From positions 62,001-126,000 of the forward strand of contig JADLGE010000010.1 in assembly GCA_020849475.1 (NCBI GenBank): a stretch of 64,000 nt of DNA, in the 5' to 3' direction. A program made the translations under genes and the position numbers. The notes below the pieces were generated by a model. It did no database searches and was not told the DNA's origin. It saw only the letters and a program-made list of their open reading frames with translations. Source of the stretch: Gammaproteobacteria bacterium (GTDB taxonomy: Bacteria > Pseudomonadota > Gammaproteobacteria > Ga0077536). Positions 31,234 to 44,385 of this stretch are shown here, piece by piece; position 1 is the stretch's first letter, and each line of letters opens with the position of its first letter.

Positions 31234-32451
31234 TCACACACCGGCCACGCGCAACGCAAACCATGCGAGCCCCGACCACAGCACGGCATGCGATGCGCCG
31301 CGACGCGCCCGCGCTGCCCACGAGCGCCGCGCGGCCCACACCATGCCGGGCACCAGCACACACAGGAGCGCGACCTGAAAACTTTCGATACCGAGATTGA
31401 AGGCCAGCAGCGACCACAGCCAGTCATGCCCGCCGAATGCCTGCGCGCCCAGTGTTTTGGCCAGCGCGCCGGCAAAACCGAAGCCGTGGATCAAGCCGAA
31501 GGCGAACGCCAGCACCATGCCGTGGTCACCTCGGCGCTGCCGCACATTGCACAGGCCGACATAGGCGATGCTGAGTGCAATGGCGGGCTCGACCACTGCG
31601 CCCGGCGGTGCGACTAGCCCGGCGGCGGCAAGCCCCAAGGTCAGGCTGTGGGCGACGGTGAAGGCCGACACCACCGCCAGCAGTGCGCGCATCGAACGGC
31701 ACAGCAAGACCAGGCCGAGCAGGAACACCAGGTGATCCCAGCCAGTCGCGATGTGATGCATGCCAAGCACAAACAGCGCGGGCAGGCCGGCGCGATGCGT
31801 GGCGGCGGGTAATGGCGAGGCGGCGCGCGTGATGCTGTTCGGTGCGCGTGGCGCGCCGCTGAAATCAACGCGCAAGTCCGCGGTGGTGTCGTGCGGCAAA
31901 GCCGCGCCCGCCACCGGAAAGCGCGTCAGCCCGGCGCTGCGGTCGTGACGGGCCGCGCCGCTCTCGACGATGCGCGCACCGCGCTCGGCCCGCACCCACA
32001 GTTCACGCCAACCGCTGTCCGTCGGCGCCGAAGCATCGACGAAATGCAGGCGCATGCTGCCGCGCAGGGGCGCGCGAGTGGTGAACACGCCATGCAGACG
32101 CAATTGCTGCAGACCGGCGGCGCCCTCGAGCAGTTGCCAGTCGAGACTCGCGCTCTGCAATGCGAGGGCGCGCTGCGCCGCGCTGAGATGCAGGGCCGGC
32201 AGCAGCGCGCCGCTCCACGCGTCGGCAAAGGCCTGCCATTCACTGCGACTGATCTGTCCGTCGCCATCGCGGTCGGCGCTCTGCTGCGCAAGCAGCGTCG
32301 GGATCTCGGCCAATTCCTGGCGATAGTCGATGCGCACAGTGTCGCCGTCCATGGTCAATGCCACGGCGCGATTGACGGTGTTGTTGCCGAGTGGATGAGC
32401 CGCGACGAGTGCGCTCCACAGCCATATCACCAGCGTGGTGAGGGCCTTCAT
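31234..32451 (-). CDS. HupE/UreJ-family membrane protein with N-terminal EF-hand domain
   Basis: The 405-residue protein has a signal peptide (MKALTTLVIWLWSALVAA). The exported N-terminal domain holds a canonical 12-residue EF-hand loop (Asp60 to Glu71, DRDGDGQISRSE). The C-terminal half has about six hydrophobic helices with conserved GMHHIATGWDHLVFLLGL and AFGLIHGFGFAGAL, the HupE/UreJ_2 signature. HupE and UreJ are linked to nickel supply, but members of this second group have no known function. It is the last gene of the DUF4331 operon, overlapping the preceding TPR gene by ATGA. Confidence 0.82.
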   Translation of the reverse strand: MKALTTLVIWLWSALVAAHPLGNNTVNRAVALTMDGDTVRIDYRQELAEIPTLLAQQSADRDGDGQISRSEWQAFADAWSGALLPALHLSAAQRALALQSASLDWQLLEGAAGLQQLRLHGVFTTRAPLRGSMRLHFVDASAPTDSGWRELWVRAERGARIVESGAARHDRSAGLTRFPVAGAALPHDTTADLRVDFSGAPRAPNSITRAASPLPAATHRAGLPALFVLGMHHIATGWDHLVFLLGLVLLCRSMRALLAVVSAFTVAHSLTLGLAAAGLVAPPGAVVEPAIALSIAYVGLCNVRQRRGDHGMVLAFAFGLIHGFGFAGALAKTLGAQAFGGHDWLWSLLAFNLGIESFQVALLCVLVPGMVWAARRSWAARARRGASHAVLWSGLAWFALRVAGV

Positions 32452-33683
32452 GGTTGGCGCGCGATTAGCTCGGCCGTGTCAGCGAGCCATGGCTGGATGC
32501 GCAAGGCGGCAGCAACCTGGGCCGCGCCACGGCCGTCACCGCAGGCCGTCAGCACCGTGCCGGCGCGCCACTGCAACAGGGGTTCGATGCTGTGCTCGGC
32601 AATCGCGCGCACGGCGAAGTCGCGCGCCTCGTCGTGCTGAGCGGCGCGCCATAGCACCCACGCGAGTTGCGCGGCGCTGTGTACGTCGGGACGCTGCGCC
32701 CATTCGACACGCGCGAGTCTGAGCGCGGCCGGTAGTTCGTCATTCATCAAATGAAACTCGACCCAGGCGCGCCGATCACCACCGCCATCGGCGGGCGCAA
32801 GACTTTCCATGCCGCGCAGCAGGCGCGTGGTGGTGGCCGCCAGTTGCGTCTCACCGAGCGGGTGGGCAAGCCGCAGCAGTTCGACTTCAGTCTCGACGCG
32901 CGCACTACGCGCCGCCGCGACGCGGTACAGGGTGAGCGCCGCGCGTGGCGCACCCAGCGCCTGCTGCGCGCGGGCCTGCATGACAAGCGCCGCGGCCGGC
33001 ATGTCCGTGACTGCAGCAGTTGCGAGCGCGAGCGCCACCCGCGGCCGGCCGGCCAGAAGTTCGAGCGCCGCGATATCGAGGGTCAGCCACGCACGGTCGA
33101 CGGCGCTGGCGCTCTGGCGCAGGGCCGCCTGCGCAAGTTCGAGAGCGCCCGGCAGATCGCCGAACAGGCGACGCAGATGAGACGCACGCGACAAGGCGGC
33201 GCTGCCATAGTGTTCGTCGAGCAGGGCCTGCACCGCCTGCTCGGCCTCGCGGTAGCGACCAAGCTCGGTCAATGCATCGGCTTCGCTGAGCGCGGCCAGC
33301 AGCGCGTCGGCATTCGATGCCCGCGCCCGTCGCGCCGCCTGCAAGGCCTGCTCGAAGCGATGCAAGATCAAGAGCCGCCACGCATCGAGCGCATCGGCGC
33401 GCGGCGCATGGGCGGCGAGCAGTTGCTCAATCAAGGCCTCGGCGCGCGCCAACTGCTCGGCGCGCGGCTCGATACGCACCTGCGCCAACAGCGCCGCGGC
33501 CAAGGCCTGCATCACCTCGACATTGCCAGGCCGCGCGGCCAAGGCCTGCTCCAGCGCGGGGATGTCCGTGGGCGGTGGCGCGCTGCGCGCCTGCGACGAC
33601 GCGCACGGCAGCCACAGCGCCAGCGCGCACACCAGCCAGCGCGCGACCACGCTCAACGCAACGACACGCGACGACGACGCCAC
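32448..33683 (-). CDS. Exported TPR-repeat protein (second of two)
   Basis: The 411-residue protein has a signal peptide (about residues 10-32) and then TPR-like helical hairpins rich in Ala/Leu/Arg, such as EADALTELGRYREAEQAVQALL and LFGDLPGALELAQAAL. Its size and layout match the TPR protein at 34363-35493, so they are probably paralogues. The frame starts inside the preceding PEP-CTERM gene (31-nt overlap); GTG or TTG codons at 33650-33656 are alternative starts. It probably acts as a periplasmic scaffold. Confidence 0.75.
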   Translation of the reverse strand: MASSSRVVALSVVARWLVCALALWLPCASSQARSAPPPTDIPALEQALAARPGNVEVMQALAAALLAQVRIEPRAEQLARAEALIEQLLAAHAPRADALDAWRLLILHRFEQALQAARRARASNADALLAALSEADALTELGRYREAEQAVQALLDEHYGSAALSRASHLRRLFGDLPGALELAQAALRQSASAVDRAWLTLDIAALELLAGRPRVALALATAAVTDMPAAALVMQARAQQALGAPRAALTLYRVAAARSARVETEVELLRLAHPLGETQLAATTTRLLRGMESLAPADGGGDRRAWVEFHLMNDELPAALRLARVEWAQRPDVHSAAQLAWVLWRAAQHDEARDFAVRAIAEHSIEPLLQWRAGTVLTACGDGRGAAQVAAALRIQPWLADTAELIARQP

Positions 33684-34345
33684 AACGGCAGCAGCCCCGC
33701 CACCATCAGGCTCAAGGCATTGGGGCTCGGCACGGCATTCAATCTGACATCGACGCTGGCGAGCGAGAACCCGTAGAGCGTGTCAGCGCCGCCGTCACCA
33801 AAGCCGTCCATGCTGCTGACGAGACCGACATGCAACAGGCCCTGCTCACCCGGCGCAAGCGCGAAGCGACGCGTGATGATCTGCGTGTCGGTAAATATTT
33901 CGTCGAACAGCGTTTGCGCGCCGATGCTTACCGCGAGTGTCAGACTCGTGCCGCCGTCGGCGCCCGCCAGGTCGAGCAGCGATTCGAAGTCGAGCGTCAG
34001 CACATAGGCGCCAGCAATACCCAAGCTCTGCTCGAGACTCACTTCCGCGACCGCGCCAGCGTGATGAAGACTGCCCTGCGCTTCGCTGCTGACGCCGAGC
34101 AATCCGTCCTCGGCGATGGCATCGGCGTTGGCGAATTCATCGACGTCGATATCGGCGCCCACTATCGCGGCATGACTGAACACCGGCAGCGCAGCGGGTG
34201 GGCTGTCGAAGGCGTGTATACCGTCGCTGTCGGCATCGACTTCGGCGTAGGTCGACACGCTGTAACGCGCGTGGCTGAGATCGACAGGCAGCGCGTGGGC
34301 CGCGCCGCTCAACATCAACAGCACGGTAAACATGAATCGCGACAT
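33653..34345 (-). CDS. PEP-CTERM-like exported protein in the DUF4331 operon
   Basis: The 230-residue protein has a short signal peptide (MSRFMFTVLLMLSGAAHA) and a beta-rich body. The C-terminal tripartite signal is VPSPNALSLMVAGLLPLW followed by RRRRVSLR. The motif is VPSPN rather than VPEP or VPLPA but fits the general PEP-CTERM pattern. It lies between two TPR genes, 17 nt after the first. The body has no cysteine; I do not recognise a domain. Confidence 0.75.
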   Translation of the reverse strand: MSRFMFTVLLMLSGAAHALPVDLSHARYSVSTYAEVDADSDGIHAFDSPPAALPVFSHAAIVGADIDVDEFANADAIAEDGLLGVSSEAQGSLHHAGAVAEVSLEQSLGIAGAYVLTLDFESLLDLAGADGGTSLTLAVSIGAQTLFDEIFTDTQIITRRFALAPGEQGLLHVGLVSSMDGFGDGGADTLYGFSLASVDVRLNAVPSPNALSLMVAGLLPLWRRRRVSLR

Positions 34346-34362: not shown

Positions 34363-35493
34363 TCAGCGCAGGTGGTTGGAAGATTCGATGGCACTCGCCA
34401 GCGTGGCGTGCAGGGCGGCGCTGAGCGCCAGGTATTCGGTGTCGCGCCAGCCGAGTTTGGCGAGTGCGCGGACCGGCGCGCGTGCTTCATCGTCACGGCC
34501 GGCGCGGTGCAGGGCGGTGGCGTAAGCAAGCACAGTCTCGACATCGGCACGCTGCGCGCGCGCACTGGCGGCGAAGCTGACGGCGCGCGCCGCATCCTGG
34601 CCTTCGAAGGCGTAGTAACTGCTGAGCGCGAGCTTGGCGTGGTCGTCGACATCGGCGCTGGCCAGCGCACGCGCAGCGAACTCGCGCAGCATCGGCGCGG
34701 CCACCACGGCTTGGCCGGCCGCCGCAGTGGCGCGCGCGAGCATCAACTGCTCGGTCACGCCGGGCCGCGCGCGATACGCGGCCTGCGCACGCTGCAGAGC
34801 CTGCGTGACATCGCCGCGTAAACGCGCCTGGCGCGCGCCTTCCGCCAAAGCAGGCAAGTAGGCGGGCCACGCCGCCAGCGCCGCCGTCAGCGCCTGCTCG
34901 GCCACCGCGCCCTGCCCCGCACCGAATTGCAGGCGCGCGAGCTGGGTGTAGCGCGCCGCGCGCATTTCGTACTGGTCTTCGGTGACGCGGTTGAGACTTG
35001 CCGTGACGAAATCAATTGCGCCCTGCCAGTCGCCATAGAGTTCGCGCAGCTGCGCGGCGCGCGCCAGGCCCGGCAGGTTGTCGGGTCGCAGGTCGAGCAG
35101 ACGCTGGGTGTCGCGCTCGGCATCGTTGTAGCGTCCGAGTGCGAGCTCGGCATCGATCAAAAGCGCCCAGGTATCGACGTCATCGGGAAAGCGTGCGTTG
35201 AGCGTGATGGCGCGTGTGAGCGCCGTCTGATCTTCGCGACGCGCGAGCAACAATGCCACGGCCGAGCGTTGCGCGCGGTAGTCATCAGGCGCTTGCGCGA
35301 GGGCCGCGCGCAGAAGGGTCTCGGCAGGTTCGAGGTCTGCGTCGTCACCGCTGGCGCGATGCTGCGCGAGCGCGGCGTCGACGCGCGTGATTACATTCTC
35401 GATGGCATTGTCGATGGCGATGTCGGCCGCCTGCACGCGCAGGGCGAGCAGCAGGAAGCTTGCGTACAGGACCAACGCGAGGGTGTTCTTCAT
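34363..35493 (-). CDS. Exported TPR-repeat protein (first of two)
   Basis: The start at 35493 begins a signal peptide (MKNTLALVLYASFLLLALRVQA) and has GGAAA upstream, giving 376 residues. The frame is open further upstream, but those residues run through a palindrome in the leader. The body is a chain of TPR-like hairpins, for example LLRAALAQAPDDYRAQRSA and ALGRYNDAERDTQRLLDL. Likely a periplasmic protein-interaction scaffold working with the other products of the operon. Confidence 0.78.
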   Translation of the reverse strand: MKNTLALVLYASFLLLALRVQAADIAIDNAIENVITRVDAALAQHRASGDDADLEPAETLLRAALAQAPDDYRAQRSAVALLLARREDQTALTRAITLNARFPDDVDTWALLIDAELALGRYNDAERDTQRLLDLRPDNLPGLARAAQLRELYGDWQGAIDFVTASLNRVTEDQYEMRAARYTQLARLQFGAGQGAVAEQALTAALAAWPAYLPALAEGARQARLRGDVTQALQRAQAAYRARPGVTEQLMLARATAAAGQAVVAAPMLREFAARALASADVDDHAKLALSSYYAFEGQDAARAVSFAASARAQRADVETVLAYATALHRAGRDDEARAPVRALAKLGWRDTEYLALSAALHATLASAIESSNHLR

Positions 35494-35524: not shown

Positions 35525-35542
35525 GTCCGAATGAATTCGGAC
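35525..35542. repeat. REP-like palindrome, family 2
   Basis: GTCCGAAT-GA-ATTCGGAC is a perfect inverted repeat with the same central CGAAT-GA-ATTCG core as the copies at 9017 and 63192. It lies between the DUF4331 and first TPR genes. Confidence 0.7.
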
Positions 35543-35594: not shown

Positions 35595-37142
35595 TCAGGG
35601 CGCGCAGGCCGCGCCGCTGCCGGCCGTGCAACCCGCTTCACCCGGATCGATGTGCCGGCGATCGCGGCCCGAGGGTGCATCGGCGAGGTAAGGAAACACT
35701 GTGCGATAAGGCGCGTCGTTGCTGTTCACACCGTCGCCGAGGCGACCGCCGATATCGGCGCTGTAGCCGGGAAACGGCGCGTGCAATACGCCGCCGACCA
35801 CCAGCCGCAGGGCAATGTCGGTGACGTCGTCGAACACGCGACGGCCGTTGGGGAAACCGGCGCCGTCGCCGCCGAGCAAGCCTAAGCGACTGGCGGCGCC
35901 GGGCGCGGTGGGTGCGACACCGGTGTTCAGACGCAGCAGGTCGGCGATGGGGCCCGCGGGCGTGCCGGCGGCGGCTATTGGCGGTGCGTAAGTCACCACC
36001 GGCAAGAGATCGGTGCGTGGCGCGGGCGGAATGGCGACCACGCCCGCGGTCAAGGCATTCACCACCCGCGCCAGCGACGGGTCGAGAAAGAAATTGGCGA
36101 ACTGGCTGTCGTGCTTCGGCACGTCCATGCTGAAACGGTCCTTGAAGCCGGTGCCGATCACGAGTTCGTTGATGAGCGGGTTGCCCATGCGCTGCACCTG
36201 GCGATAACCGCCCGAATCCGCCGCCGGCAAGGGCGAGCGACGCACCGTCACGCGCGGCCGTGAAGTCGTGCCCCACACGCCGATGGTGGCGGCGGTTGAA
36301 TTGGCCGCTTCGACCTGGCCGCTCCTGGTCAGCATCGTCACCGGCACTTCAATGGCGATGGAATTGACCGCATAGCCAGACACCGTGTCGGACGAGAGAT
36401 TGTCCTGCGCGGCATCCTGGCCGGCGCTCAACACCGGAAAGGAATGGGTGTTCAAAGTATCGAAGGCGCCACCGAGATCGATCCAGAACGCGTCGTCAGT
36501 GGTGCCGGCAAACGCTTTGACGTTGCCCGCCAGGCTGTGCACGCCGGCGTTGAACAGCGCCGTGTAATCCATGGTGCGCGGCCCGACATTGGCCGGCACG
36601 GTGGCGAGATGCGTGCCGAGCACGGAGCGCGACTTGAGGACCCCCTTGCTGTAACGCACGAGGGTCAGGGTGTAGGTCTGCTTCTGGCCGAGACCGGCAT
36701 CGGTGGCCTGTGTGATCCTGTCGGGCACAATGGGTGTGCCCGGTGCTACCGGTGCGGGGGAATTGGCCGGCGCATTGGCGCCGCCCGGCACGCCGGCATA
36801 GGCCTGGAACAGGTTGGGCAAGGTCTGCTGGGTGGAAAAGCGCACTTCGAGACCCAGGTCTTCGAGCGCGTCGTTGTCGTTATCGACTTTCAGTTCGTAG
36901 ACGATATCCGAGTCAAAGGGAAACCAGTTGGGGCCATTGGCCGGCTCAAGCAGCGGGTCGACGCCCAGGATCAAGGTGACCTTGGGCGTGGCATCGGCCG
37001 GGTCGTAACTACGGAAGGCATAGACGTCGGTGATGTCGGCCTTGTGATCGAGCGCCGTGATCGGCGCCTCGCGATGATTGGCAGCCTGCGCCCACGGCGC
37101 CAGCACCAGGCTCGCCGCCGTCAGCAATATGCGATAGTTCAT
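35595..37142 (-). CDS. DUF4331 exported protein, first gene of the putative ECF-controlled operon
   Basis: The start at 37142, with CAGGGAGAG upstream, gives 515 residues beginning with a signal peptide (MNYRILLTAASLVLAPWAQA). The mature protein opens with NHREAPITALDHKADITDVYAFR, the DUF4331 hallmark. Other family features include LGGAFDTLN and RVFDDVTDIALRLVVGG. The C-terminus has two cysteines (EAGCTAGSGAACAP). DUF4331 proteins are extracytoplasmic and have no known activity. The gene is divergent from an ECF sigma factor, and a sigma-like promoter motif sits 41 nt upstream of the start. Confidence 0.88.
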   Translation of the reverse strand: MNYRILLTAASLVLAPWAQAANHREAPITALDHKADITDVYAFRSYDPADATPKVTLILGVDPLLEPANGPNWFPFDSDIVYELKVDNDNDALEDLGLEVRFSTQQTLPNLFQAYAGVPGGANAPANSPAPVAPGTPIVPDRITQATDAGLGQKQTYTLTLVRYSKGVLKSRSVLGTHLATVPANVGPRTMDYTALFNAGVHSLAGNVKAFAGTTDDAFWIDLGGAFDTLNTHSFPVLSAGQDAAQDNLSSDTVSGYAVNSIAIEVPVTMLTRSGQVEAANSTAATIGVWGTTSRPRVTVRRSPLPAADSGGYRQVQRMGNPLINELVIGTGFKDRFSMDVPKHDSQFANFFLDPSLARVVNALTAGVVAIPPAPRTDLLPVVTYAPPIAAAGTPAGPIADLLRLNTGVAPTAPGAASRLGLLGGDGAGFPNGRRVFDDVTDIALRLVVGGVLHAPFPGYSADIGGRLGDGVNSNDAPYRTVFPYLADAPSGRDRRHIDPGEAGCTAGSGAACAP

Positions 37143-37182
37143 GGATGACTCTCCCTGCACCGGATTGGTGATGATTCGAGGG

Positions 37183-37211
37183 CTCTACGCAGTGACGGCG
37201 CGCCCTGGATG
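37183..37211 (-). promoter_or_regulatory. Predicted ECF sigma promoter of the DUF4331 operon
   Basis: On the minus strand, CATCCA (37211-37206) is followed after 13 nt by CTGCGTAGAG (37192-37183). The motif is matched on the other strand a few bases away in the sigma gene promoter. The 17-nt distance from ATCC to CGTA is normal for ECF -35/-10 elements, and the leader to the start at 37142 would be about 35 nt. Confidence 0.6.
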
Positions 37212-37216
37212 CAGCT

Positions 37217-37244
37217 CATCCAAAAAAACATTTGCTGCGTAGGG
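37217..37244 (+). promoter_or_regulatory. Predicted autoregulatory ECF sigma promoter
   Basis: CATCCA (37217-37222) and CTGCGTAGGG (37235-37244) are 12 nt apart and repeat the motif of the divergent operon, facing the sigma gene that starts at 37336. The spacer is A-rich (seven As). Two facing copies of the same motif in one 193-nt gap suggest that the sigma factor recognises both. Confidence 0.6.
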
Positions 37245-37335
37245 CAGGCATGAATACGACGGGTATCAAGGCGGGCATTGAACCGCGCACACGGGAGTCG
37301 GGCACTCAGGCCTTGCCTGTCATCGACAACACACC

Positions 37336-37923
37336 ATGGATGCCGCTCGCCGCCAACTGCCCGACAACGACGCGCTCAACGCCGCCGCGCGTGAGTGGAT
37401 AGCGCGCATGGCCTGCGGTGACGAAACCGGCATGGGTCTGCTCTACGACGGCACGCTGGGCCACGTCTACGGCCTGGCGCTGCGTGTGACGCGCGATGCC
37501 GATGCCGCCGAGGACGTGGTGGCGGAAACCTATCTGCAGGTCTGGCAGCAGGCCGGCCGTTACGATGGCGAGCGCGGCACGCCGCTGGCGTGGCTGTTGA
37601 ACATCACGCGCAGCCGCGCGCTCGACCACCTGCGACGCCGCGCCAGCGCACTCGGTGTCGATAATGTCGCCGTTGCAGCAGCACTCGACGAGGCGCTGCA
37701 TGAGGACGATCCGTTGTCGCTGGTGATGGCGCTCGAACGCGAACAGGGGCTCAAGCGCGCGATTGCGGCGCTGTCACCCATCCCACAACGGCTGCTGGGC
37801 CTGGCGTTTTTCGAGGGGCTCTCGCACAGCGAGATCGCCGCGCGCACCGGTCTGCCGCTAGGCACGGTGAAATCCCATTTGCGGCGCGCGCAGGACAGCC
37901 TGCGCCACCATTACCGCGACTAG
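37336..37923 (+). CDS. ECF-type RNA polymerase sigma factor
   Basis: The 195-residue protein has sigma region 2 (AEDVVAETYLQVWQQAGRYDGERGTP is the 2.2-2.4 area) and region 4 with the HTH LSHSEIAARTGLPLGTVKSHLRRA. The short length without regions 1 and 3 defines an ECF factor. A cupin ChrR-like protein is encoded 23 nt downstream, the arrangement seen for RpoE-ChrR pairs. It probably transcribes its own operon and the divergent DUF4331 operon. Confidence 0.92.
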   Translation: MDAARRQLPDNDALNAAAREWIARMACGDETGMGLLYDGTLGHVYGLALRVTRDADAAEDVVAETYLQVWQQAGRYDGERGTPLAWLLNITRSRALDHLRRRASALGVDNVAVAAALDEALHEDDPLSLVMALEREQGLKRAIAALSPIPQRLLGLAFFEGLSHSEIAARTGLPLGTVKSHLRRAQDSLRHHYRD

Positions 37924-37946: not shown

Positions 37947-38516
37947 GTGAACGGACACGACGACATCGACGACAAGCTGGGCGACGACGCCCTGCCGCCA
38001 GCGCTCATGCACGAGCTCATGAGCGGCCTGCGCCCACTGCCTCCGCCGCCCGAGCGGGCCGCCGCGCTGCGTGCACGGGTGATGGGTTCGTTGCGCGAGG
38101 CCGCGCAGGAAGACAGCGAACTGTCGCTCGCAATCGCGGCCTTGCGCAGCCTCACGCCGCTCGCTGACGCGCGTTGGGAAGAGCGCTGGCCGGGCATCGA
38201 ACTGTGCATGCTGCGGGTCGCGGACGACAGCCGCTCCTATCTCATGCGCATGCAACCCGGCAGCCGCCTGCCGGCCCATGTCCACAGCCGTGACGAAGTC
38301 AGCATGATCATCGAAGGGGAAGCGCTGGTGGGTGGCACGCAGCGCATGGGACCGGGGGATTTTCAATTCATGCCGGCCGGTGTCGATCACGCCGTGATCG
38401 ATTCACCCGCCGGCTGCATCGCCTTCATTCACGGCGAGCAGAGCTTTCGCCCGCGCCTGACCGCCGGCTTCGTGGCGCGCTTCATCCACTACACCGTGCA
38501 GCGCTGGTCGCGCTGA
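37947..38516 (+). CDS. ChrR-like cupin anti-sigma factor
   Basis: The GTG start at 37947 with GAAGG upstream gives 189 residues. The C-terminal half is a cupin with metal-binding PAHVHSRDEVSMIIEGEAL and PAGVDHAVID. The N-terminal half is helical, as in ChrR anti-sigma domains, but I do not see the His-x3-Cys-x2-Cys zinc motif of classic ZAS proteins. The factor may therefore sense its signal through the cupin metal site alone. In Rhodobacter ChrR releases RpoE on singlet oxygen; the signal here is unknown. Confidence 0.78.
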   Translation: MNGHDDIDDKLGDDALPPALMHELMSGLRPLPPPPERAAALRARVMGSLREAAQEDSELSLAIAALRSLTPLADARWEERWPGIELCMLRVADDSRSYLMRMQPGSRLPAHVHSRDEVSMIIEGEALVGGTQRMGPGDFQFMPAGVDHAVIDSPAGCIAFIHGEQSFRPRLTAGFVARFIHYTVQRWSR

Positions 38517-38522
38517 AGGTTC

Positions 38523-41012
38523 TCAGGCAGCGCGACCGAGAGACACATCCGCCCGCTCTTCGCCCGCCGAGGTGCGCAGATTGACGACCAGGGACTGCAT
38601 CTGTTCGGCCTGCTCGCTCAGGAGCTTGCTGGCCGCCGCGGTTTGTTCCACCAGCGCCGCGTTCTGCTGCGTGCCCTGATCGATTTCGGCGACGGCCGCC
38701 GCCACCTGGTCGATGCCGGCGCTTTGCTGGGTGGAGGCGGTGGCGATTTCGGCAATGATGTCGTTGACCTTCTTCACCGAGCTGACGATTTCGGCGAGGC
38801 GCGCGCCGGAATCATTGACGAGTTGCACGCCATCGCTGACGCGCTCGACGCTGTTGTCGATGAGACCTTTGATCTGCTTGGCGGCTTCGCCGCTGCGCTG
38901 GGCGAGATTGCGTACTTCGCTCGCCACCACCGCGAATCCGCGTCCTTGTTCGCCGGCCCGCGCCGCTTCGACGGCTGCATTCAAGGCCAGGAGATTGGTC
39001 TGGAAGGCGATGTCGTTGATGACGCCGATGATGTCGCCAATCTGGGTGCTGGCGCCGTTGATTTCGCCCATGGCCGTGATCGCGCGCCGCACTACCGCGC
39101 CGCCCTGCTCGGCCTGCTCGCGCGCACTGGCGGCCAATTCATTGGCGGCGCTGGTGTGGCTGGCATTCAAGCGCACGGTGTCGGCGAGCTGACGCATGTT
39201 GGCAGTGGTGCGCTCGACGTTGTGCGCCTGCTCTTCGGTGCGCTGACTCAAATCCCAGTTGCCGGTGGCGATTTCACTGGTCGCCGAACGCATGCTCTCC
39301 GACACGCCACGCAGTGCGTTGATGGTGCGGCCGAGGTTGCCAAGGCTGTCGTGCAGGGCATCGCGCAATACCGCGAAATCGCCCTGGTAGAGGCCCTCCA
39401 TGCGCCGGGTCAAATCGCCGCCGGCCATGGCGGTGAAAACTTCCTTGCACTCGTTGATGGGTTGCACCATGGCGTCGAGCGTGGCGTTGACGCCCTCCAC
39501 CACCTGGCGGAATGCGCCGGCGTGACGCGCGGTGTCGGCGCGGGTTTCGAGACGCCCCTCGACACCAGCCTCGGCCAGTTGGTCGACATCGCTGACCAAC
39601 CGTGCGACGGCCTCGGTGCAGCGGTTCATGTTCGCTTTCAATTGCGCGAGCTCACCGCGCCACTCGGCGTCGATGTGCGGCGGGATCTCGCCGCGCGCCA
39701 TGCGGTCGACGTAGTCCATGGCGCGGCGCAAGGGCTCGACCATGGTGTCGAGCATGTGATTGATGCCGCCGGCGAGGCGCTTCAGGAAACCTTCGTCGAA
39801 GCTCGGCAGGTCGAGACGGCGATTGAGTTCACCGGCCACGGCCGCTTCGATCATCGCTTCGATTTGCGCTTCGGCGCCCTGCTGTTCGGTGACGTCGGTC
39901 CATTCCAGCACCGTGCCGAGGCGCTCGCCCGCGGCGCCCAGCACCGCACTGGCGCTGACCTGGTAGCTGCGCGCGGCGAAGCGGATGCTGGCGCTGGCGG
40001 TGCCGAGCGCGCTGGCGAGGGCCGCATCGAAGCGTCCCGCGTTGATGCCGACCAAGGCCTGCGGATCGAAATCCGGCCACTGGCTGCGCGCCGCCGGCGC
40101 GACTTCGGCGAAGCCTTCGATAAGCGTGCGGTTGAGATAGAGGATGTCGAAATTGGGGTCGACCAGCATCACCTGCGAATGCACATTGTCGAGCGCTTCG
40201 ACCACGCGCCGATTGTCGGTGGCAGCCGCCGCTTCGGCGAAACGCCGCTGGTCGAGGTCATCGAGAATGCCGTTGAAAACTTCGGCGACATCGCGGAAAT
40301 CCGCTTTCAATCCGGTCAGGCGACTGTCGGTGTCGCGGCCGTCGCGCAATACCCGCAGCGCGGCCAGCAGTTGGCTGAGCGGCGGGATGACGCGCTGGTA
40401 GACCAGCCACAGCACCACGAGGCTCGCGAGCGACAGCATGACGAACGCGGTTATCGCGCCGGCGCGCACGGTGCTGCTGGCCGCCGTGGCGGCGTGCTCG
40501 GCAGCGGCGGAGCCAGCTTCGAGTTCTTTGGCCAGGGCGTCGAGTTCGTCGGCCAGCGCCGCGGATGCGTCATCGAGACCGGTCTGCGGCCGCTTCATGA
40601 TGGCGTTGCCCGCCTCGCGGCCGTCCTTGATGTAGGCGCGGGCCATTTCCGTGCCGACCTCGTTCAAGGTTTCGAGGCGCGCCTGTATCGGCGTGAGACG
40701 CGCGCTCAGCGCCGGCGCATCGAGCGCCAGCTGATGCAGGCTGTCGAGCGCGGCGCCGAGATTGCCACTCGCTTCCTCAAATCCACCCTCATCGTGGGTG
40801 GCGCCGACGTCGGTCAGAAATTGTTGAATCTGGATGGCGTGAAAACGTGCGTTCTTGAGATCGAGCACCGCCCGCATGGCGGCGCCGCGCTCGACATCGG
40901 CCTGCGCGATAGCATCGAATTTGTGCCACACGAAAGCGCCGACGGCGACGCTGGCCAGGAGCAGCAGCCCGGCGGCGATGCTGAGCAACTGTTTGAGTTT
41001 GATTTCTTGCAT
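38523..41012 (-). CDS. Methyl-accepting chemotaxis protein with PAS and repeated HAMP-like region
   Basis: The 829-residue receptor has TM1 at about 8-27 and a helical periplasmic domain of about 150 residues. TM2 is at about 184-206 ([18 protein letters not shown]). A PAS-like domain lies near 270-385 ([19 protein letters not shown]), followed by HAMP-like repeats to about 560. The signalling hairpin has the conserved tip [20 protein letters not shown] near 690. There is no C-terminal CheR-docking pentapeptide. No che genes are adjacent, so it is an orphan receptor. The stop lies 6 nt from the stop of the convergent ChrR-like gene. Confidence 0.93.
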
Positions 41013-41284
41013 GGGGACTGGATACCTGGTTTCGAAAACGTGACGGGGTAAGGTCGCGTAGGGCGCGTTCGCGGGCCGCTACACGAAGCGGTCCGCGCTG
41101 GAGTTAGCGGCTCGAAGGCGTCGGTCTGAAGGCGCGGCCAGCAGCGATGTCGGGACACAAACGTTTGCATGGTCGGCCACGCGTGGCGTGACCGCGCGCT
41201 TGGTTGCCCGCGCCGGCCATGCTAGCTTCGACGCTTGGGAAACCCCCGGCCGCGAAGGCCCGGGCCAGCACGGAACAGCATCAC

Positions 41285-42118
41285 ATGGCATCCAGACGCG
41301 GTCGCTCCGGCGACGACATCCTGTACGGCTCCGCACAGCGCGACCACCTCTCCGGTCTGAACGGCGATGATCGCATGTATGGCCGTGACGGCGACGATCG
41401 CATGGCCGGCGGCGCCGGCAACGACTACCTGAGCGGCGGCAAGGGCACCGATATCCTGCTCGGCGACACCGGGGACGATCGACTCTACGGCGACCAGGGC
41501 AAGGACAGTCTCTATGGCGGCGCGAATCGCGACGCGCTGTTCGGCGGCCCCGGCGCGGACCGCCTCGACGGCGGCGCGGGCCGCGATGCGCTGCACGGCG
41601 GTGACGGCGCGGACCGTCTGGTGTACGACGCCCAGGACCGCCTCATCGATGGCGACGCCGGCCGCGACACCCTCATCATTGGCGGCAGCGGCGTGACCCT
41701 CGATTTGAACCTGGCCGGCACGCCGCGCATTGATCACATCGAGGTCATCGATTTGAACGGCGCCGGCGCCAACACCCTGCGCCTCGACGCCGCCGATGTG
41801 CTGGCCATCAACACCCAGCACACCCTGCTGGTGATGGGCGGCGCGGATGACTCGGTTATTTCACCGACCGACGTGTGGACGCAGAATGTCGCGGGTGCGG
41901 TGGATATCGGCGGCCAGCACTACCTGGCGTGGGATGTGGGGCTTGCGCACCTGTTGGTGGATGCGGATATCACGCTCAACAACGTCACGCCGGGAGGCGA
42001 ATCGTTCGCAAGTTTCCAGAACGTCTTCTTCAGCAGCTTCACCGATGTCAGTCTTGTACACAGGGGAACCATCGGCCCGCTGACCGAATTTCCAATCGTG
42101 GAACCCCCACCGGTCTGA
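41285..42118 (+). CDS. RTX-type calcium-binding repeat protein
   Basis: From the ATG at 41285 the protein has 277 residues; TTG 41204 or ATG 41219 in the same frame are alternative starts and no ribosome binding site decides. The first 110 residues consist of about eleven GGxGxDxLx-type nonapeptides (SGDDILYGS, NGDDRMYGR, AGNDYLSGG, TGDDRLYGD and so on), which form a calcium-dependent beta-roll. The second half is a beta-rich domain I do not recognise, rich in Leu/Ile/Asn. Such proteins are usually exported by type I secretion without a signal peptide; no ABC exporter is present here. Confidence 0.82.
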   Translation: MASRRGRSGDDILYGSAQRDHLSGLNGDDRMYGRDGDDRMAGGAGNDYLSGGKGTDILLGDTGDDRLYGDQGKDSLYGGANRDALFGGPGADRLDGGAGRDALHGGDGADRLVYDAQDRLIDGDAGRDTLIIGGSGVTLDLNLAGTPRIDHIEVIDLNGAGANTLRLDAADVLAINTQHTLLVMGGADDSVISPTDVWTQNVAGAVDIGGQHYLAWDVGLAHLLVDADITLNNVTPGGESFASFQNVFFSSFTDVSLVHRGTIGPLTEFPIVEPPPV

Positions 42119-42423: not shown

Positions 42424-44385
42424 TCAGGCCAGCGCGCCGTCGGCGGCCAGCACCTCGGCGACATCGTCCATGCCGAGTTCGCGCATCTTGCTGCGGGTCT
42501 GCAGACCGGTGTCGCGATCCCAACCGCGCCATTCGTAGTATTCGTCAAGCACCGGCACGAACATGTCGGCCGCCACTTTGCCGGCATACATACCTTCCGG
42601 GTTCGGCTCCCACATCCAGCGTTCGCAGATGGTGTCGTGTTCGCGACGCAAGCCGATGCGCGAGTTGATGGCCTTCTCGAGATTGCAGATGCGCTCGCCG
42701 TCCTGCATGAGTTCGTCGGGCGTGCGCTCAATGCCGGTGACGGCGGCGAAGGCTTTGCCGTAATACTCCTGCGGCATGTAGCCGGCCGGGTCGAGCATCC
42801 AGTGGAACAGGCACACGCCGTAGGAATTGAGCAAGGCCACCTGGTTTTCGACCAGCGCCGTGCACGCGCCCTTCAATACCGGCGTCGACAGATCGGCGGC
42901 CTCGGTGCGGCCGTTGAAATATTTCTTCGAGAGATCCTTGCGCTGGAATTTCTCGATGAGACCGATGCCCTTCAGGTGATCGGCGCCGCGCGAGGCGACC
43001 GCCATGTTGTTCATCCAGGTCGGGAACGGCCGCATTTCCTCGGTGAAGCTCGCGCCGCCCTTGCCGTAGATGGCGTACTTCATGAAGTTCTGGCCCTTCA
43101 TGGCGGACAGCTTCAGCGCGCCGAAGTAAGGCCCGTCGCTGAACATCACGCCGAAGGGATTGCTCTGGAACACCACGCTTTCGATGCAGGCCTCGATGTC
43201 TTCCATGTTGCCCCAGCGCAAGGGCTGGGCGCGGCCGAAAAGCTCGGCAACATCGCGGTCCGACAACAGCTCGCGCTGCTTCAATTCCATGATGAAGCTG
43301 ATTGAGCAGGACAAGTCCTGGTTGTCGACGCCGTAGTCGTTGGTGATCTTGCCCCAGTGCGCGACCTCGGCCCAATCGCGCACGTCGAGCATGCCGGCAG
43401 CGCTGCCGGTGGTGAGATATTCGGGGCGGCGGAACGCTTCGCCCTTGTACTTGGCGGCGGCCTCGGTCTCGTTGCCTTCGATTTTGTATTTGCCGTCGCA
43501 GGCAATGAAGCAGTCGGACGAACAGACTTCCGAGTAACGGTGATACTTCTTCACCCAGTTGTCGGAGCGCACTTCTTCGCCGCGGAACTGGTTGCCCTGG
43601 TTGTTGCGCCAGGCGTGGCCGCCGATGTGCTGATACATCTCGACCGCGCCCAAGGTGCCGCGACGCTTGAAGCCATACACCGCTTCGTTGCCGTCTATCT
43701 TGCCCTTGAAGTCCTTCGACCACGCCAGCATGTCTTTCGGGCGCGTGACCGGCAGGCCGCCGTTGCCCTGCACGGCGATGGCTTTCAAATTCTTCGAGCC
43801 CAGCACCGCGCCGCCGCCGCCGCGCGCATGGATGCGCAAGGCATCGGCCACCACGCCCGCCACGCCGACCATGTTCTCGCCGGCCTGGCTTATGGACAGC
43901 GTGCTGGTCTTGGACGGCCAGGTGCCGTGGGTCTCCTGCAGGATGGCGTGGGTCTCGCTGGTGTTCTTGCCCCACAGGTGCGCAGCGTCGAGCAAGGACA
44001 CTTCATCGTTGCAGATATGCAGATACATCGGCTTCGGCGCGCGGCCCGTGATGGCGATGTATTCGTAGGCGGTGAAGCGCACCATGTAGGGAAACTTGCC
44101 GCCACCGGCCGAGTCGCCAAAGATGCCATAGGTCGGGCTCTTGAAGGTGATGCGGCCCTTCACGCCGCTGCCGGCGCCGGTGCCGGCCAAGGGCCCGACG
44201 CCGAACACGAAGATGTTGTCGGGACTGCGCGGATCGCAGTGGATGTCGTGGGTTAAAAAATGCTCCCACATGATCCAGTTGTTGATGCCCGAGCCACCCA
44301 CCCAGCGTTCGAACATCTGGTGCGGGATGACTTCACTCTTCAACTCACCGGTGGTGAGATCGACGCGCAATAAACGGCTTTCCAT
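42424..44385 (-). CDS. Aldehyde ferredoxin oxidoreductase-family tungsten/molybdenum enzyme
   Basis: The 653-residue protein has the AOR N-terminal pattern (LLRVDLTTGELKSE, FERWVGGSGIN, GPLAGTGAGSGVKGR). The iron-sulfur site is CSSDCFIAC in the middle with a fourth Cys in LNSYGVCLFH. The first spacing (C-x3-C-x3-C) is wider than the CxxCxxxC of classical AOR, so the enzyme may belong to a BamB-like or other branch. The family oxidises aldehydes or reduces acids or aromatic thioesters at a bis-pyranopterin W or Mo centre. The neighbouring ferredoxin and MoaD-like genes support a working complex. Confidence 0.87.
   Translation of the reverse strand: MESRLLRVDLTTGELKSEVIPHQMFERWVGGSGINNWIMWEHFLTHDIHCDPRSPDNIFVFGVGPLAGTGAGSGVKGRITFKSPTYGIFGDSAGGGKFPYMVRFTAYEYIAITGRAPKPMYLHICNDEVSLLDAAHLWGKNTSETHAILQETHGTWPSKTSTLSISQAGENMVGVAGVVADALRIHARGGGGAVLGSKNLKAIAVQGNGGLPVTRPKDMLAWSKDFKGKIDGNEAVYGFKRRGTLGAVEMYQHIGGHAWRNNQGNQFRGEEVRSDNWVKKYHRYSEVCSSDCFIACDGKYKIEGNETEAAAKYKGEAFRRPEYLTTGSAAGMLDVRDWAEVAHWGKITNDYGVDNQDLSCSISFIMELKQRELLSDRDVAELFGRAQPLRWGNMEDIEACIESVVFQSNPFGVMFSDGPYFGALKLSAMKGQNFMKYAIYGKGGASFTEEMRPFPTWMNNMAVASRGADHLKGIGLIEKFQRKDLSKKYFNGRTEAADLSTPVLKGACTALVENQVALLNSYGVCLFHWMLDPAGYMPQEYYGKAFAAVTGIERTPDELMQDGERICNLEKAINSRIGLRREHDTICERWMWEPNPEGMYAGKVAADMFVPVLDEYYEWRGWDRDTGLQTRSKMRELGMDDVAEVLAADGALA

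Follow-up and report, generated by a model that had tools for sequence, protein, structure and literature searches.

Two copies of one promoter motif lie between an ECF sigma factor gene and a divergently oriented DUF4331 gene in the 64-kb stretch of DNA analyzed here (64,000 nucleotides in full length, hereafter the window). Comparison with related loci argues that the two act as divergent promoters for the adjacently encoded ECF sigma factor, which would drive its own gene and DUF4331; we give this reading a probability of about 85%. The promoter elements and the genes of the locus are listed in Table 1.

Two abutting copies of a promoter-like motif

The start codons of DUF4331 (ATG at 37142, minus strand) and the sigma gene (ATG at 37336, plus strand) leave an intergenic gap of 193 bp. 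The minus-strand copy consists of CATCCA (37211–37206), N13, and CTGCGTAGAG, which ends at 37183, and the plus-strand copy of CATCCA (37217–37222), N12, and CTGCGTAGGG, which ends at 37244. The copies stand back to back, with the −35 boxes inside, separated by 5 bp, and the −10 boxes outside; the original prediction had this arrangement right in its reasoning, and the word "facing" in its title has to be dropped. Its two CATCCA copies at 37183–37244 proved exact to the base. CATCCA-N12/13-CTGCGTAG has two exact matches in the window and none in 100 dinucleotide shuffles. A genome scan, which had been called for to see whether the motif is common at random, returned two matches, both at this locus, in genome G000 (5,403,854 bases, 137 contigs) and none for the reversed-pattern control, so that the two copies are the sole exact matches in 5.4 Mb.

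The motif itself had been worded as CATCCA followed by CTGCGTAG. The first word stands; the second runs from the last bases of the spacer into the −10 box, and its leading CTG is not general. Counting the window's own copies, the exact string occurs in 1/44 upstream regions of related sigma genes and 2/23 upstream regions of DUF4331 genes. By sequence comparison the true core is wider than first read, CATCC(A/G)-N15/16-CGTA(G/T), a −35/−10 pair with ECF spacing, and this pair recurs in relatives.

Table 1. Promoter elements and genes of the sigma-DUF4331 locus (window coordinates)
Feature	Position	Strand	Basis
−35 box CATCCA, DUF4331 promoter (extended TGCATCCA)	37206..37211	−	Sequence; kept in relatives
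−10 box CGTAG, DUF4331 promoter, spacer 16	37185..37189	−	Sequence and relatives; putative start near 37179
−35 box CATCCA, sigma-gene promoter	37217..37222	+	Sequence and relatives
−10 box CGTAG, sigma-gene promoter, spacer 15	37238..37242	+	Sequence and relatives; putative start near 37248
ECF sigma factor gene, 195 aa, regions 2 and 4	37336..37923	+	Pfam Sigma70_r2, r4_2
ChrR-like cupin partner, 189 aa, without HxxxCxxC, presumed anti-sigma	37947..38516	+	Pfam Cupin_7; ChrR match; role presumed
DUF4331 gene, 515 aa, first behind the minus-strand promoter	35595..37142	−	Pfam PF14224, 340.5 bits
TPR protein, next after DUF4331	34363..35493	−	Weak TPR_19 match; behind DUF4331 in L186 too
Small exported protein X230, PEP-CTERM-like end	33653..34345	−	Weak NCBIfam PEP-CTERM matches, below cut-off; in L186 too
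Second TPR protein	32448..33683	−	TPR_16 below cut-off
HupE/UreJ-like membrane protein	31234..32451	−	PF13795, 127.4 bits

The motif recurs in related loci

Relatives came from two sources: 369 genomes of the class, of which 45 matched at E 1e-22 or better, and genome contigs, in which 361 loci were confirmed and 80 retained. Two copies of the window (L001 and L002), near-identical upstream regions, and those under 120 bases were left out before counting, which reduced the sigma-cupin set from 47 to 44 sequences, the set of other related sigma genes from 90 to 81, and the DUF4331 set from 27 to 23. The strict pattern CATCCR-N15/16-CGTAK was present in 20/44 sigma-cupin, 15/23 DUF4331, and 5/81 other sigma upstream regions, with shuffle means of 0.03, 0.01, and 0.04, respectively. 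An unbiased enumeration with no prior word (5-mer, gap of 10–21, 4-mer) gave CATCC-gap16-CGTA as its top pair, found in 24/44 sigma-cupin and 13/23 DUF4331 regions, while 20 shuffled sets reached at most 6 and 4. The looser [CG]ATCC-N15..17-CGTA matched 27/44 sigma-cupin, 19/23 DUF4331 (20 sites), and 19/81 other sigma regions; two of the 27 sigma sites (L084 and L085) precede a second sigma gene rather than the cupin-adjacent one. This looser pattern was not found in the remaining 17 sigma-cupin regions or in four DUF4331 regions (L052, L054, L082, and L109). The core occurs before related sigma genes and DUF4331 genes in many Proteobacteria, with dissimilar spacers between the boxes, and the −10 box is CGTAG in the bacterial family of the window, with CGTAT commoner elsewhere. 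The strict motif is present in neither L052 nor L054, where DUF4331 is divergent from a sigma gene without a cupin partner; back-to-back TGCATCCAAA words, with −10 letters other than CGTA, were noticed there by eye (at about 2080–2200 in L052).

The nearest sigma homologues are in L004 (77 percent), L005 (69 percent), and L006 (53 percent). DUF4331 is divergent from the sigma gene in all three, and both back-to-back motifs are kept in their gaps with diverged spacers, the sigma-side copy of L005 being weaker (looser form). The distance from −35 box to −35 box is 5, 5, 6, and 4 bp in the window, L004, L005, and L006, and 11, 27, 38, 43, 45, 190, or over 170–280 bp in other loci; the abutment is therefore a trait of the lineage of the window, not of the system.

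An ECF sigma factor with a zinc-free cupin partner

The sigma protein matches Sigma70_r2 (60.7 bits) and r4_2 (47.8 bits), both over the cut-off, and no further sigma domain; regions 2 and 4 without regions 1.1 and 3 place it among the ECF (group IV) sigma factors. Its best solved relatives are SigK (4nqw, top by score with 88.8 bits) and RpoE (2q1z).

Cupin_7 and Cupin_2 are the only Pfam domains in the partner, which scores 35.7 bits against the curated ChrR model TIGR02451, below the cut-off of 124.5, and matches ChrR 2z2s weakly (E 7e-4). Its predicted fold has a mean pLDDT of 70, with helices of low confidence in residues 18–69, and a Foldseek search with this fold placed ChrR 2q1z first (E 2.9e-9). 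Aligned with ChrR, the window protein keeps the cupin metal ligands HxH, E, and H (invariant in 5/5). In ChrR, the zinc of the anti-sigma domain is bound by two His and two Cys and is needed to inhibit, according to the available text of one report (PMC6852236). The zinc-binding HxxxCxxC is absent from the window protein and from all 45 cupin partners of its clade (loci whose sigma factor matches at 110 bits or above), 42 of which have the cupin ligand pattern. Among the cupin partners of more distant sigma factors, 16/18 have HxxxCxxC; L120, one of the two without it, has a CATCC promoter, and a sigma tree of 58 chosen rows groups L120 and the ZAS-type rows together and separates them from the zinc-free type. 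Most sigma genes whose partner is a ZAS-type ChrR have GTGATCCG in front. L036 is zinc-free and yet has GATCC, so the −35 letter correlates with the partner type without being fixed by it.

Two successive cupin matches were also seen in the partner region of Methylomonas and Accumulibacter loci (L061, L062, L065, L066, L068, L071–L074, L076, L077, and L079), in most of them within frames of 282–343 aa, and so as a double-cupin sensor.

A further candidate target: a second ECF sigma gene

The earlier string had also been offered as a search word for the rest of the regulon. It leads nowhere beyond its two matches at the locus; the corrected core combined with cross-species conservation yields one further target. 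CATCCR-N15/16-CGTAK has 16 matches in G000 against 12 for the reversed control, near background, and nine each in G001, G002, and G028 against 12, 11, and 5; a whole-genome regulon by motif alone was rejected as too noisy. The narrower TGCATCCR-N15/16-CGTA has 22 matches in eight genomes against seven in the control, and none in Ramlibacter (G404) or G028. Its two matches in G001 (control 0) are at DUF4331 and at a second sigma gene, as are two of the four each in G000 and G002. Three of four matches in Methylomonas sp. SURF-1 are in the sigma-DUF4331 locus, and one precedes a DVUA0089-family protein (NF038127, 134 bits) with a PEP-CTERM-like end. Third promoter copies were noted in Methylomonas loci at L076:3563–3587, L061:3603–3627, and L065:3675–3699 (all minus strand), and the one in L076 precedes a DVUA0089-family PEP-CTERM-like gene located between sigma and DUF4331.

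The second target encodes an ECF sigma factor with a zf-HC2 partner, and the same promoter stands 55–82 nt before this gene in 3/3 same-genus genomes (L142, L160, and L180; the site is L142:1499–1526, G000:C9:201432–201459). Wherever the same-genus second sigma has the motif, the first sigma is in the genome too (3/3). The motif was not found at L197 and L198, the closest second-sigma homologues in genomes without the first sigma, and no first-sigma orthologue was found in G015 or G007; two (L203 and L205) of 21 second-sigma homologues outside the genus gave a marginal match. Further down, the second sigma gene apparently has a promoter of its own, TGAACC-N-ACT(C/A)A, which was seen by eye in L194 and is a frequent word pair in distant second-sigma homologues, and the CATCC site therefore looks like an added upper promoter. 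Within the genus, the first sigma factor probably also reads the promoter before the second ECF sigma operon, which may constitute a sigma cascade.

Which sigma factor reads the two sites

The claim that a common sigma factor serves both transcription units gains support from the comparison, in which the same −35/−10 pair precedes sigma and DUF4331 genes in the three nearest relatives and, in looser form, widely. The sigma gene thus carries upstream the promoter type that also precedes a target, conserved across species, as autoregulated ECF sigma genes do. Motifs stand before both genes in 14 loci after deduplication, 13 with C in both promoters, one with G in both (L036), and none mixed, although this pairing on its own gives p = 0.07. 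L036 has a zinc-free system in which both divergent promoters (2202–2294) read GATCC instead of CATCC, and this joint switch was counted in favor of one sigma factor reading both. DUF4331 genes outside the directly divergent arrangement have the motif too: in L040, L057, L058, and L114 they lie downstream of the sigma gene, and in L061, L065, and L076 they are more than 1 kb from it. Region-4 residues are strongly associated with the −35 base, an association confounded by ancestry.

The genome has seven ECF-like matches to the query sigma, and another sigma factor could therefore read the sites. It is unlikely that they are read mainly by the second ECF sigma or an ECF11-like RpoE, with the local sigma factor not the activator: related ZAS-ChrR sigma factors do read the neighboring word GATCC-N16-CGTA, and the motif also precedes the second sigma gene in the three same-genus genomes, but the closest relatives of that gene lack it where the first sigma is missing, and across taxa the motif goes with the local sigma type. 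Chance likeness, or a conserved coding or RNA sequence without promoter function, is extremely improbable; single loose matches are common, as the genome counts above show, but the exact pattern is missing from shuffles and unique in the genome, and the pair recurs with unrelated spacers in the intergenic DNA of many genomes.

A dimeric regulator of both genes could also bind the copies as one dyad operator, in which the inverted repeat TGGATG-N5-CATCCA is flanked by the outer arms CTACGCAG/CTGCGTAG. The inverted arms at 37182–37192 and 37235–37245 (11 nt, 42 nt apart) are 91 percent complementary, and the −35 boxes keep their 4–6 bp separation in the four closest loci; elsewhere, however, the copies are 11 to over 280 bp apart or single before DUF4331, each −35/−10 pair holds its own internal spacing, and the two spacers in the window differ by one base. 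We consider this reading very unlikely and rejected it because the distance between copies is unconserved beyond those four loci.

Under the preferred reading, two divergent promoters for the adjacent ECF sigma factor, the cupin protein would presumably keep the sigma factor bound until the cupin metal center receives a signal; on its release, the sigma factor would fire its own operon and DUF4331. The plus-strand CATCCA-N15-CGTAG would then provide positive autoregulation of the sigma-cupin operon, and the minus-strand CATCCA-N16-CGTAG would serve DUF4331 and perhaps the TPR, PEP-CTERM, and HupE genes behind it. The usual footprint of RNA polymerase is probably too large for both abutting promoters to be filled at once. 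With −35 boxes 4–6 bp apart in this lineage, two polymerases are probably not there simultaneously, and the two units may thus compete for holoenzyme.

Comparison with known ECF systems

For P. syringae PSPTO_1043 (RpoE with ChrR), the available text of the report gives the consensus TGATCC-N16-CGTA from ChIP and qRT-PCR (PMC5507510), and for Shewanella RpoE2-ChrR, that of a second report gives TGATCC/CGTATT with mapped starts (PMC4336711). Among the promoters described in these texts, TGATCC-N16-CGTA of RpoE-ChrR is the nearest proven one, and the motif of the window is, by sequence comparison, its sister variant. The system resembles ECF11 RpoE-ChrR of Rhodobacter sphaeroides, P. syringae, and Shewanella in pairing an ECF sigma factor with a soluble cupin protein that has four conserved metal ligands, in the spacing ATCC-N16-CGTA (counted from ATCC to CGTA, as in the texts cited), in its autoregulation, as promoter comparison suggests, and in a partner whose predicted model matches ChrR 2q1z best. 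It differs in the base before ATCC, which is C in both copies of the motif here and G in RpoE-ChrR as described there, so that neither copy reads TGATCC. The HxxxCxxC zinc site of ChrR is missing from its partner, which stays below the curated ChrR cut-off, and the conserved target of the system is DUF4331. The core regulon of ECF11 RpoE-ChrR includes photolyase and cfa genes. At L031:2788–3441, a DUF4331 gene with a GATCC promoter of its own follows a ZAS-type ChrR locus, which looks as though the sister regulator had taken over the target.

SigK (ECF18/ECF19)-RskA is the other system to be compared: NF007228 is the best curated model for the window sigma factor (126.8 bits), and 4nqw its best solved relative, but the cut-off of 226 bits is not reached and a cupin protein takes the place of RskA as partner. 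The literature search returned no SigK promoter sequence for comparison.

There is, in our estimate, an even chance that these loci represent a widespread, apparently undescribed ECF branch in Proteobacteria, in which a sigma factor reading CATCCR-N15-CGTA(T/G) is held by a zinc-free, ChrR-like cupin protein whose only sensor is its cupin metal center. On this reading, DUF4331 exported proteins would be the target throughout, PEP-CTERM proteins would be targets specific to certain lineages, and the genus of the window would have a sigma-to-sigma cascade. No description of the promoter word or of a zinc-free ChrR type, and nothing on DUF4331, was found in the literature searched; the large ECF re-classification may already list the group and a predicted promoter for it. 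The DUF4331 family would gain a regulatory address and a branch of ECF sigma factors a promoter word, supported by sequence comparison. ChrR offers a natural comparison, with the same cupin sensor and an anti-sigma domain here without zinc, through which one can test whether ChrR-type proteins sense at one of their two metal sites or at the other.

The DUF4331 gene group and its neighbors

DUF4331 is a single-copy gene in G000; a sequence search found no solved relative, and its predicted structure has a mean pLDDT of 40. Behind it, at 35542–35525, is a weak terminator-like hairpin; matches of this kind are no commoner than in shuffles (five against a mean of 8.1). HupE matches are close to DUF4331 in several loci. 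Relatives of the locus were sought in viral contigs and none was found. The gene group includes a PEP-CTERM-like exported protein, and the genome encodes an exosortase (33653–34345, minus strand, and G000:C111:51217–51969). On the other side of the locus are genes for a methyl-accepting chemotaxis-like protein (38523–41012, minus strand; by eye), an RTX-repeat protein (41204–42118, plus strand; PF00353), and an aldehyde:ferredoxin oxidoreductase-like protein (42424–44385, minus strand; by eye), the last with 93 percent identity in G002.
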